The notes under the pieces: generated by a model | Seen by the model: the letters and a program-made list of their open reading frames with translations, nothing else | Database searches by the model: none | What the model was told of the DNA's origin: nothing | In this document: positions 48,845-52,110 of the stretch, piece by piece | How the letters are laid out: every line of letters starts with the position of its first letter | Position numbering within the stretch: the first letter of the stretch is position 1 | Assembly: GCA_025352145.1 (NCBI GenBank) | Contig: JANXTY010000048.1 | Span: 1 to 64,000, forward strand | Origin: Oxalobacteraceae bacterium | GTDB lineage: Bacteria; Pseudomonadota; Gammaproteobacteria; Burkholderiales; Burkholderiaceae_D | Reading direction: 5' to 3' | DNA: 64,000 nt | Made by a program: the position numbers and the translations under genes

Positions 48845-48912
48845 CGTGAGCGCAGTTGCGGGGATACATCTCCGAGCCTGGCGAAAAGAAATTTCGTCGC
48901 AACGCTCCTCGG
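48845..48912 (-). ncRNA. SAH riboswitch in the ahcY leader
   Basis: On the minus strand the leader reads CCGAGGAGCGTTGCGAC, then after a variable loop GCCAGGCTCGGAG, then GCAACTGCGCTCACG. This matches the SAH riboswitch consensus: CCGAG pairs with CTCGG, and GAGCGTTGC pairs with GCAACTGCGCTC to form the pseudoknot part. It ends 22 bases before the ahcY ribosome binding site. SAH binding is known to switch on ahcY-type genes. Confidence 0.93.
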
Positions 48913-48920
48913 AATGGCGG

Positions 48921-48929
48921 ATTTTATCA
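48921..48929 (-). promoter_or_regulatory. extended -10 promoter of ahcY
   Basis: On the minus strand TGATAAAAT lies nine bases before the riboswitch, placing the transcript start at or just before its 5' end. TGGCAA at 48945-48950 is a weak -35 with an 18-bp spacer. Confidence 0.55.
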
Positions 48930-49021
48930 CTTTCCCCCATTAAATTGCCAGAAAAATGCGCTTCTGGTAGCGATCAAGAGCGGCAGAATCCCTTATTTAG
49001 GGGGAATGAAAAGACTTAACA

Positions 49022-49362
49022 TTCAACCCAGATTTTCCATTAGGACGAGTTCAAGTGTGCCTCTGGCGTACTGTCTGGCAGGGTGCGGCAGGGGTTTCGA
49101 ATGACAGGTCATTCGCCTGCGTAACGGTGTTCGCGTATCAGCGCACAGGCGCCCTGCAAGGGAGCCGGCGCGGCGGCCTTTCTGCCGCAAGGAGAAGGGT
49201 GTTCCACTGGAACGCCGAAGCTGCCAGGCGGTGCACCAGAGGGGCAATGAATGGGACTCGTAGCGCTCTCACTCAATCCGCGATCTTCATTTTTACGCCA
49301 GCGCCAGCAAACAGGCGGCTTTGGCAGAAAAAAAAACGGTCTAATGGGAAATCTGGGTTGAA
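49022..49362. mobile_element. 341-bp element with terminal inverted repeats (MITE-like or IS remnant)
   Basis: The left end TTCAACCCAGATTTTCCATT (49022-49041) is the near-exact inverse of the right end (49339-49362, reverse complement TTCAACCCAGATTTCCCATT). The 110 bases next to the left end recur at 4148-4246. The inner part has no intact reading frame with a recognisable transposase, so it is non-autonomous or a deletion product. No clear target-site duplication was seen. The 150 bases between it and the next gene hold nothing recognisable. Confidence 0.68.
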
Positions 49363-49512
49363 CAATTTGAGCATTTTCGGCAGTGTCGACAAGCACCAAC
49401 AAAACGCCCATCCCGGCAGCTGTCAAACAGCGCGCAACATTTTCCAGTAGGCAGCGCCGATATTTAACAGGAATATTTCTTTAAAACAAACAACGCGACA
49501 GAACCGGTTTGG

Positions 49513-50970
49513 CTAATGGGTCAGTACCATCGAAAAAAATACCCTGCCAGGTCCATTCGACAATTTGAACAACATCTTGTTGCGACCCTTATTGAAGTGC
49601 ACCTTGCGGCTGCCTTCGTTCAAATTGTACTGGGCCTTGTATTGATTTTGGGTCCTGTAGATATGGTCGAAAAACGATTGTTTGCTCACATTGCCGCCTT
49701 TCCACACCAGTTTGTCGTTTAGCCACACCTGCGAGTCGTCGTCGGCGCCGATCGCCATCGTCAAGTCCATCGCTTCATCCATCATTAACTCGGTATAGCC
49801 GTAGTAGACGGCGTCGTCGCTTTGATCCGGCGGAATCAGGGGATAGCTGGTCGCACTAAAGTACTTCCACTTCAACAGTCGCTTGCCCTTGCCAAAATAG
49901 ACGGCATCGAGCAGCACGGCTTGTTCGGGAGGATAGCTGTCGTTGGCAAACATGCCGTGCCCGTGCTTGCCTTCGAAAGGGCCGATCAAATACCAAGTGT
50001 TGACGAATACCCGCGTGGCGTACTGACCACCCTCACCAAATATCCGCCCCATACCCTTGGTCGAACTGGTGCCGCCGAGCGCTAGCATGCTGCTGGGCGT
50101 GCGGTCGAACAGATCCCCATTTGAGAAGGCGTAGTTGCTCGATTTGTTCTTGGGTTGCGCGATGTCGCGATTGATAAAGGTGGCGATCTCGGCGCGTACG
50201 CCGGCGCCACCATCGCCTTTGGCGCCGCTCTGCGCGCCCTGACCAGTGCCGACCCCGTTCGCTTGCGCGTTGGCGCCGTCAGCCTTGCCGCCAGCACTTG
50301 CCTCCTTGCCCGCCTTGTCGTTGAGGGTCGACGCCGCTTCAGCGCTACTGCTCACGCCCACGCCTTGTTCCTGGCGTTCGAGTTCTTCTTGCCTCTGCAT
50401 CAACGTCTCGCGCGCCTTGGTTTCGAGCTTCTTGATTTCATCGGCGACTTGCGCCGCGTCGGTGGGGAGCGGGGCGAGCGGCATCTCGGGCACGGGAGGC
50501 GGAGCCTCAAGTTGTTCGAGTGCCTTTTCTTTCGGGATTTTTAACACCTTGGCCAATTCCTCGGCCTTGATCTCTTTGGCTACGTCGTCAATCGACTTCG
50601 ACAGCGTCTTCGCTTCCTTCAGCAACTCCTGCGGCTGCTTCGGCAGCGAGGTGGCGCTGAACGTGACCTCGTCATCGATCGGTTTGCTGACGGCCGCTCT
50701 GCTTGGGCTGCTTTTCTCGAGCAAGGTCTTGATCTTCTCCATATCCTGCACCCGCTTTTCGGTGCGGGCGTGGCTGGCTGCCTGTACGCTGGCGCGCACT
50801 TGTTCGTCTTGCTTCTTAGCCTCGATCACGTAGCTGCCGAAATAATAGAGTAGTGTCAGCACCACGGCATGCACGCTGATCGACACCGTCGCGTATGGGT
50901 GGCGCGGCACAAAGCCGACAATCAATTTCGCCAGTCTCCGCGTGGGGTCGTCGTCAAGCGCGTATGTCAT
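49513..50970 (-). CDS. TonB/TolA-like membrane protein with C-terminal sugar-binding-like beta domain
   Basis: A 485-residue protein with no signal peptide but one N-terminal transmembrane helix (about 27-48), like TonB and TolA. Then come charged helical or coiled-coil stretches (about 50-90 and 112-205), a Pro-rich patch (157-169), a Gly/Ala-rich disordered linker (about 215-258), and a C-terminal domain (about 318-485). That domain has WYLIGPFEG, a DDDSQVWLNDKLVW motif (410-423) and a final strand block KGRNKMLFKLSNG. It resembles glycosidase-associated jelly-roll (GH2 sugar-binding or PA14-like) modules and not the TonB C-terminal fold. The ATG overlaps exbD by 4 bases. The role is inferred: an ExbBD-energised periplasmic arm that may bind glycans or proteins. 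Confidence 0.68.
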   Translation of the reverse strand: MTYALDDDPTRRLAKLIVGFVPRHPYATVSISVHAVVLTLLYYFGSYVIEAKKQDEQVRASVQAASHARTEKRVQDMEKIKTLLEKSSPSRAAVSKPIDDEVTFSATSLPKQPQELLKEAKTLSKSIDDVAKEIKAEELAKVLKIPKEKALEQLEAPPPVPEMPLAPLPTDAAQVADEIKKLETKARETLMQRQEELERQEQGVGVSSSAEAASTLNDKAGKEASAGGKADGANAQANGVGTGQGAQSGAKGDGGAGVRAEIATFINRDIAQPKNKSSNYAFSNGDLFDRTPSSMLALGGTSSTKGMGRIFGEGGQYATRVFVNTWYLIGPFEGKHGHGMFANDSYPPEQAVLLDAVYFGKGKRLLKWKYFSATSYPLIPPDQSDDAVYYGYTELMMDEAMDLTMAIGADDDSQVWLNDKLVWKGGNVSKQSFFDHIYRTQNQYKAQYNLNEGSRKVHFNKGRNKMLFKLSNGPGRVFFSMVLTH

Positions 50971-51389
50971 TTACGGGTGTGCAGCGAGATATTGGTCAAG
51001 CCCTCGAACTGGCACAGGTCGAGCACATGCACGATGTCCTGGTACTTGGTCAATTCGTCGCCATCGATGCGAATCGGCCGCTTCGGGCTGCTGAGCGCTT
51101 CCTGCTTGAGCGTGTGATGCAGGGCTTGGGTCGACACTTGGTCTTTACCAAGATAGACCTTGCCGTCCTTGTCGATGCCGATAATCAGTGGCGCCGGACC
51201 GGCCTTGAGTTTCTGTAGACTAGCCTCGGCGTTCGGCAAGGTGACCAGCAGTTCCTCGGTCGGCTTCGGGTCGTCCGGCTTCTTGAACGAGGTCGCCACC
51301 ATGAAAAACATCAGCAAGAAGAAGATGCAGTCAATCAGTGCGATTAAGCCAATTTCGGGCTGTTCGTCTTCGCCCAGATTAATGCGCAT
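50967..51389 (-). CDS. ExbD/TolR-family biopolymer transport protein
   Basis: A 140-residue protein: a short cytoplasmic N-terminus, one transmembrane helix (about 13-33) with the conserved Asp D20 in [13 protein letters not shown] that carries protons in ExbD/TolR, and a periplasmic domain ending near SLHTRK. It overlaps exbB by 11 bases and the downstream gene by 4, so the three proteins are probably made in set ratios. Confidence 0.9.
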
Positions 51390-52110
51390 ACGACACCACC
51401 TGCAGACTCGGGCCGGGCGCGGGCATGAACCATTCTGCCAGCAAATGGTTGATGTGTTTCTCCAGCTTCAGACTGAAAAACGCCATACGGTTGCGGAAGA
51501 AATGGTGCATGCCGAGTGCCGGCAGCGCCACCGCCAAACCGGACGCGGTGTTGATCAGCGCCTTCGAAATCCCGCCAGCCAGCAGCGCCGGGTTGCCCAT
51601 GCCGTCGGCGTAGGCGATCACGTGAAAGGCGTCGATCATGCCCAGCACCGTGCCAAGCAGACCAACAATCGGCGCGACGGTGGCGACGATCGCCAGTGCA
51701 TAAGCTTTTTGCTGCTGCTGCCGCAACTCGATTGAGGCGATGTCGCCAGCGCCAGCGCTGACAATCGCGTAGCCCTGCGCGCGGTGCTTGACCATGAAGC
51801 CGATCACGCGTGCGAGGGTGCTATTTTCTTGATTGAGCAGCGCTTGCAGTTGACCATATTCATGCGTGTCCCACAGCGGCTTGACGCGCTCAATCAGGCC
51901 TTCCGGCACGATCGCCTTAGCGCGAAAGTGCACCAGGCGTTCGAGCGTCACGCCGAGAAACAGGATCGAGAGCGCGAAGATGACTAACACGCCGATGCCA
52001 CCATCAGACGCCTGCGCAACATAGTTTATTTCCTCGGCACGCGCAGCCTGCATGAGGGTGAAGGAGGACAGTACGGCGACAGCGGATTTACGCAGCATAT
52101 GACATGACAT
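51379..52110 (-). CDS. ExbB/TolQ/MotA-family proton channel protein with signal peptide
   Basis: A 243-residue protein. Residues 1-26 look like a cleavable signal peptide (ending AARAEE), followed by helices at about 39-59, 138-160 and 183-204. The last two hold the MotA/TolQ/ExbB signature ([17 protein letters not shown] and [14 protein letters not shown]). A second ATG at 52098 gives MLRKSAVAV. Neither start has a clear ribosome binding site. It heads a three-gene operon with ExbD and the TonB/TolA-like protein, distinct from the general tonB or tol-pal loci. Confidence 0.9.

Follow-up and report, generated by a model that had tools for sequence, protein, structure and literature searches.

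A putative ExbB–ExbD-driven force transducer with a predicted jelly-roll tip in an Oxalobacteraceae bacterium

The window analyzed here is a stretch of 64,000 nucleotides from an Oxalobacteraceae bacterium (contig JANXTY010000048.1 of assembly GCA_025352145.1), and its minus strand carries, at positions 49513–52110, a run of three overlapping genes that encode a motor of the ExbB–ExbD type and a third protein, here termed X. As judged from residue conservation and predicted structures, X is most probably a force transducer that is driven by this motor and that ends in a jelly-roll domain. The exbB-like gene (51379–52110, 243 residues) encodes a MotA/TolQ/ExbB channel and the exbD-like gene (50967–51389, 140 residues) its partner, both according to the open reading frame (ORF) list and Pfam; they overlap by 11 nucleotides, and gene X (49513–50970, 485 residues), coding for the proposed transducer, overlaps exbD by 4 nucleotides, all of which agrees with a preliminary description of this DNA. 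That description had regarded X as an ExbBD-linked transducer with a sugar-binding-like jelly-roll tip and without a TonB C-terminus, and this core claim has withstood those of the analyses directed against it that could be run. The strongest evidence for a motor-linked transducer did not form part of the description: it is an SHLS-type docking motif, as known from TonB and TolA, that can be read from the membrane helix of X.

The motor and the docking helix of X

By its sequence, the motor core is intact. In Pfam, ExbB matches PF01618 (E 1.7e-23, 83.2 bits against a cut-off of 22.9) and ExbD matches PF02472 (E 2.9e-27, 95.7 bits against a cut-off of 25.4), and in a motor alignment of 27 rows, which comprises the window and 26 loci, the proton-carrying D20 of ExbD, a residue already named in the preliminary description, is Asp throughout (27/27), just as T154 and T188 of the pore threonine ring, P197, and S48 of ExbB are each invariant (27/27). 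The start of ExbB has the look of a signal peptide, as the preliminary description had put it. X itself could not be matched in any usable way to Pfam, NCBIfam, PHROGs or PADLOC, nor to sequences from solved structures, the best E-value of the latter search being 0.25 for X and 0.015, to a lipocalin, for a profile of its tip. A role in anti-phage defence was considered and rejected, as none of the three proteins has a match in PADLOC and X has none in PHROGs.

The single N-terminal helix that had been assigned to X was recovered as one hydrophobic stretch at about residues 26–51. We aligned X in 30 rows, namely that of the window, those of the full-length loci except L076, whose match is split over two frames (26/27), and three from second copies in tandem, and among the 22 helix columns of residues 26–47 the entropy is lowest at H34, S30, G45, and L41. 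The spacing of these four least variable columns, S30-x3-H34-x6-L41-x3-G45 (residues 30–45, positions 50836–50883), is exactly that of the SHLS motif (PMC12215075; PMC12204202), and the remaining helix columns vary freely. The Ser-x3-His pair of the motif is thus present in the single membrane helix of X, with H34 in 30/30 rows and S30 in 29/30, and Gly45 and Leu41 follow with 26/30 and 24/30. There is no other obvious reason for such a pattern at the SHLS positions, and X is proposed to dock on the motor.

The full-length model of X contains helices at residues 9–23, 25–87, 113–143, and 172–202, a linker of low confidence, and a beta-rich domain that begins at about residue 320. The end of the second helix and the two helices that follow it are predicted to form a periplasmic arm (residues 48–202, positions 50365–50829), within which residues 102–108 (VTFSATS, 50647–50667) represent a candidate, imperfect D-box-like strand. 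The arm is followed by a Gly/Ala-rich linker, mostly of low model confidence (residues 203–317, 50020–50364), and by the C-terminal domain (residues 318–485, 49516–50019), which the predicted structure and the fold searches assign to beta-sandwiches of the GH2-N/PA14 type (GH, glycoside hydrolase). X resembles TonB and TolA in being tied to an ExbB/ExbD motor with conserved pore residues, in possessing a single helix with the Ser, His, and Leu of SHLS at the right spacing, and in the order of helix, arm and linker, and C-terminal domain. It is unlike them in its tip, a predicted jelly roll without a TonB_C match, in the replacement of the last Ser of SHLS by Gly, and in lacking a clear D-box.

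The tip domain and its kin

The motifs WYLIGPFEG and DDDSQVWLNDKLVW, which the preliminary description had named for the C-terminal domain, are both found in X. A model of residues 286–485, built with 37 sequences, reached a mean predicted local distance difference test score (pLDDT) of 74.9 and a predicted template modelling score (pTM) of 0.76, with the first 33 residues below 50, and it consists mostly of beta strands that form a predicted beta-sandwich. With this model, Foldseek retrieved 34 matches to solved structures at E<=0.001; a GH115 enzyme ranks first, followed by the PA14 lectin Cea1A and by GH2 and GH3 enzymes, and the full-length model of X gave an agreeing result, with three matches at E<=0.001 that are all GH115 or GH3 enzymes. 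In VIA-align, beta-glucuronidases lead, with a Z-score of 11.1 for 127 aligned residues at 2.9 A, and the best 50 matches, with Z-scores of 9.8–11.1 over 117–138 residues and 8–14% identity, are nearly all GH2 enzymes that are matched mostly in their N-terminal part, the top beta-glucuronidases over the N-terminal ~180 residues. The best fold matches of the tip are accordingly the N-terminal sugar-binding domains of GH2 enzymes, such as those of beta-glucuronidase and LacZ (domain 1), although X, unlike these enzymes, has no catalytic domain and carries the tip on a motor-docking arm.

The comparison of residues 318–485 with PA14, GH2, and TonB folds, which had been proposed as a check, thus yielded a predicted sugar-binding-like jelly roll. 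The best 50 matches of each tip fold search are GH2/PA14-type and other carbohydrate-active proteins, and neither they nor the matches listed for the full-length model include a TonB, TolA or vWA structure, an absence from these lists that does not exclude such a fold. Pfam likewise gave no TonB_C match in X at E<=1 or in the 30 family rows at E<=0.5, and VWA was likewise matched neither by X nor by any of these rows. Weak matches to carbohydrate-related models occur among the 37 tip rows, four of which match PA14 (best E 0.0059) and two Glyco_hydro_2_N (best E 0.048).

Sequence relatives of the tip, with 30–34% identity, were found at five loci from Aminicenantes, Saccharicenans, and one Acidobacteria bin, and they share the motifs WYLIGPFE and DDG-LW-ND with X. 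In the one of the five that was scanned, L097, the tip-like domain sits C-terminal to DUF2961 (PF11175, E 9.4e-86), a family that we take to be the present GH172; L098, L099, and L100 look alike by reading, and L101 is a fragment. The stretches surrounding these loci contain no ExbB or ExbD match, and the tip-like domain is fused there to DUF2961, whereas in X it is joined to the motor-docking arm. By fold and by sequence, the kin of the predicted tip lie in carbohydrate-active proteins, which does not imply that X binds sugar.

Within the tip, D411 and N472 are invariant (30/30) and belong to an Asp-Asp pair with a conserved Asn downstream, residues that GH2 N-terminal domains may carry as well. 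They recall the calcium-binding site of PA14 lectins, which consists of DcisD plus an Asn (PMC6218569). X shares the Asp-Asp pair and the downstream Asn with the GlcNAc-binding lectin Cea1A (5a3l), which ranks second in Foldseek with an E-value of 1e-4, but unlike PA14 lectins it has no Pfam PA14 match, and the likeness to the DcisD calcium site is a resemblance in sequence.

Distribution, gene order, and genome context

A tip-only scan of GTDB genome contigs gave 33 loci, 27 of which encode a full-length X: 24 are records of Massilia, Duganella, Pseudoduganella or Telluria, and three come from gammaproteobacterial bins, of which two carry the label Cellvibrio or Cellvibrionaceae. The preliminary description had asked whether the third gene is kept with exbBD elsewhere, and this is the case: in 26/27 full-length loci, all found with a query that did not contain the X N-terminus, X follows exbB-exbD on the same strand in one run. 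The exception is L085 of genome G296, and among the loci with examined surroundings there are two full X copies, one each in G018 and G296, that have no motor genes beside them. At another place, each of these genomes nevertheless encodes an ExbD of this type, with 61% and 63% identity to that of the window, respectively. The exbB-exbD pair of G018 keeps a remnant of about 33 residues of X (L154, G018:C1:673000-679000; L016), and its full X lies 1.16 Mb away from that pair, between parA/parB-like and atp-like genes that were named by eye. 

Tandem X paralogs occur at L069, L090, L092, L064, and L157, with one copy broken at the last of these, and at L090 and L092 the second X stands between exbB-exbD and X. 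A diverged second paralog, X2, is found beside X1 at L069 (8513–9760), L090 (5776–7185), L092 (5791–7194), and L157, and X2-type genes stand alone at L155, L159, and L160. At L066 (7355–8074) and L093, an ORF of 239 residues encodes the X tip with no match to the docking helix; it lies behind a MacB/FtsX-type permease gene, and on the opposite strand it is adjoined by what looks, by eye, like a gene for a TonB-dependent receptor.

Searches at increasing taxonomic distance gave matches in 5/100 genomes of the relatives set, including the own genome and one hit (E 2e-4) whose reading frame is broken by four stops, in 34/392 genomes of the family set (31 after removal of G113 and G146, which match weakly and partially, and of G371, which has the tip only), in 1/369 genomes of the class set (the own genome), and in 2/398 genomes of the phylum set (the own genome and G018). 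The other ExbDs nearest to that of the window, found in 7/396 genomes with 32–38% identity at E<=1e-12, have no X-like gene that could be seen by eye in the six of their seven neighbourhoods that were read; L169 yielded unreliable ORFs only. When ORFs of 36 loci were clustered, the only nameable conserved neighbours were the operon genes and Massilia housekeeping genes (nth and rnfB-like, by eye), in a set in which some loci come from one genome and many of the mechanically called ORFs are spurious. Neighbour genes also differ among the three gammaproteobacterial loci. At two of these, a GH95-like gene (by eye) is convergent behind X (L091, 8585–11080; L096, 8584–11082).

The own genome contains nine MotA_ExbB matches, including that of the window, and 11 TonB_C matches, none of which is at X, and there are operons that resemble tonB-exbB-exbD-exbD, tolQRA-tolB-pal, and others (names by eye except for Pfam matches). 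Because these TonB_C matches and the Ton- and Tol-Pal-like operons lie elsewhere in the genome, X looks like an extra component and not like a replacement, and it is most likely an additional transducer beside the Ton and Tol systems. Two further regions of the same genome are recorded here: L122 (G000:C38:47500-55500) is another motor operon, with genes for a TPR-like protein, a TolQ-like protein, two ExbD-like proteins, and a glycine-rich protein whose end matches TonB_C weakly, and at L120 (G000:C56, 3041–3367) a small Barstar-like ORF (by eye) adjoins an exbB-exbD pair.

The operon had also been described as richer in G+C than its flanks, as lying next to a mobile-element remnant, and as a possible product of gene transfer. 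The composition was confirmed: the G+C content is 0.57 for X, 0.55 for exbD, and 0.60 for exbB, whereas 46 other ORFs of the window average 0.526, and the third-position values of 0.74, 0.76, and 0.74, compared with a mean of 0.566 (standard deviation 0.055), are the top three among the listed ORFs, which were mechanically chosen as long and non-overlapping and may include a few spurious ones. The mobile element is real and lies 3' of the operon, outside the system; in form, it is a non-coding interspersed repeat of about 341 bp (49022–49362, no strand assigned) that resembles a miniature inverted-repeat transposable element, with 22-nt terminal inverted repeats that are 95% complementary. Elsewhere in the genome, the flank 48850–49512 is matched 48 times; nearly all of these matches fall within the repeat and most are partial, and pieces of one copy may have been counted twice. 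A scan for promoters and terminators gave nothing above the level of shuffled sequence.

As to gene transfer, a midpoint-rooted tree of the joined proteins (26 rows) shows the window on a separate branch next to the 21 other rows from Oxalobacteraceae; the support of 93/93 is below the star level of the tool, the three gammaproteobacterial rows stand apart from the window, and a long Duganella row, L094, groups with them uncertainly. A recent transfer from Massilia or Duganella is unsupported, as the window branches beside and not inside the other Oxalobacteraceae rows. Acquisition of the operon by transfer is possible in view of its anomalous composition, but no recent donor emerges from the tree, and transfer is only weakly indicated overall.

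Proposed mechanism and alternatives

We propose that the motor end of X functions in the manner of TonB or TolA, with a different tip at the other end, and that X is dedicated to its own ExbB–ExbD motor. X would dock on helix 1 of ExbB, proton flow past D20 of ExbD and the threonines of ExbB would move ExbD, and this movement would be handed to X and passed along the arm to the tip. As estimated from residue counts, arm and linker should be long enough for the outer membrane, and the tip would hold a ligand at the wall or the outer membrane and be pulled. Proton force may in this way be exerted on something other than the usual TonB and TolA targets.

Several observations weigh against this interpretation and have to be set beside it. 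At the motor end, the ExbB position that we assume, from an alignment by eye with E. coli sequences, to correspond to the TonB-contacting Trp is Leu in 22/27 rows. The conservation counts of the docking helix come from related rows and are not independent, and the fourth SHLS position is never Ser (0/30) but Gly in 26 of 30 rows; the Leu and the last Ser of SHLS are reported to be less conserved in TonB (PMC12215075). The D-box is the TonB strand that joins ExbD (PMC10907165), and residues 102–108 of X deviate from the published pattern at one position and are missing in part of the family, so that a D-box is not clear. Concerning the tip, the model is of moderate confidence only, the Foldseek TM-scores normalized by query length are low (0.29–0.44 among the matches listed), and X does not reach the PA14 and Glyco_hydro_2_N models of Pfam. 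Concerning the loci, X1 of L157 is internally deleted, with its parts in different frames beside an intact X2, and in L076 (7100–8537, on a contig shared with L158) the halves of X lie in different frames through an apparent frameshift in the low-complexity linker, either real or a sequencing error. Finally, besides exbB-exbD, no nameable neighbour is conserved across loci or hints at a glycan substrate.

As the ligand of the tip, a glycan is plausible without being probable, and most of the remaining weight falls on a protein partner. The same motor-driven transducer could bind a barrel or lipoprotein of the outer membrane, with the sugar-binding fold as an inherited scaffold only, an alternative that we consider tenable, if short of likely. 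The tips of TonB and TolA bind their protein targets by beta-strand addition (PMC12204202), and the missing PA14 and GH2-N Pfam matches of X, as well as the lack of a nameable conserved carbohydrate gene beside the operon, are in line with a protein target; yet the listed fold matches and the distant sequence relatives are found in carbohydrate-active proteins, and a conserved partner gene is equally absent from the surroundings of the operon. A bolder version of the glycan reading, a machine powered by the proton motive force that grips and pulls a glycan via a lectin-type tip, be it peptidoglycan, a saccharide of the outer membrane or a nascent polysaccharide undergoing export, with tandem X1 and X2 tips for different ligands, appears doubtful.

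It is improbable that X is a sensor or gate, in which binding of a ligand to the tip would signal via the helix to ExbB and open the proton channel with no useful pulling: the Ser-His pair, which has been proposed to relay a signal to helix 3 of ExbB/TolQ in Ton and Tol complexes (PMC12215075), is conserved in X, but the operon contains no signalling partner, and the long arm and linker fit reach better than local sensing. That X is a membrane-anchored carbohydrate-binding protein merely sharing an operon with the motor is very improbable, since the two full X copies away from exbB-exbD are outweighed by the otherwise unexplained SHLS-position pattern, by the gene order held in 26/27 loci, and by the exbD of the same motor type that both genomes with an unlinked X still hold elsewhere.

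The ExbBD-driven transducer that we favor has counterparts in the recently described vWA force transducers, which have been proposed as motor-linked proteins with an SHLS helix, a vWA tip, and a function that is not known, and for which more such systems were expected (Williams-Jones et al., 2025, PMC12204202). X has in common with them the link to a motor, the SHLS helix, and a tip unrelated to that of TonB or TolA; it differs in that their tips have the vWA fold and their genes are, in the Planctomycetota–Verrucomicrobiota–Chlamydiota (PVC) group, often accompanied by a TPR gene and two tolR-like genes, whereas the X system has a jelly-roll tip, one exbD, and no TPR gene that was seen. In the open-licence literature of PMC, judged by titles and the beginnings of abstracts, none of the papers listed dealt with a transducer of ExbBD that has a tip of the PA14, GH2 or jelly-roll type.

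In summary, X is a further variant of the motor-linked transducers, with a tip that differs from the vWA tips described in 2025, and it would add another kind of non-TonB, non-TolA tip to the loads driven by ExbB–ExbD motors. The docking helix would then seem to be a module to which evolution has joined varied grippers. The system is compact, with three genes, it occurs in named strains of Massilia and Duganella, and the predictions on H34, D20, and the ligand of the tip are sharp, which renders it directly testable. Should the tip bind sugar, the proton-driven force would be exerted straight on a glycan, so that a polymer and not a protein would receive it.

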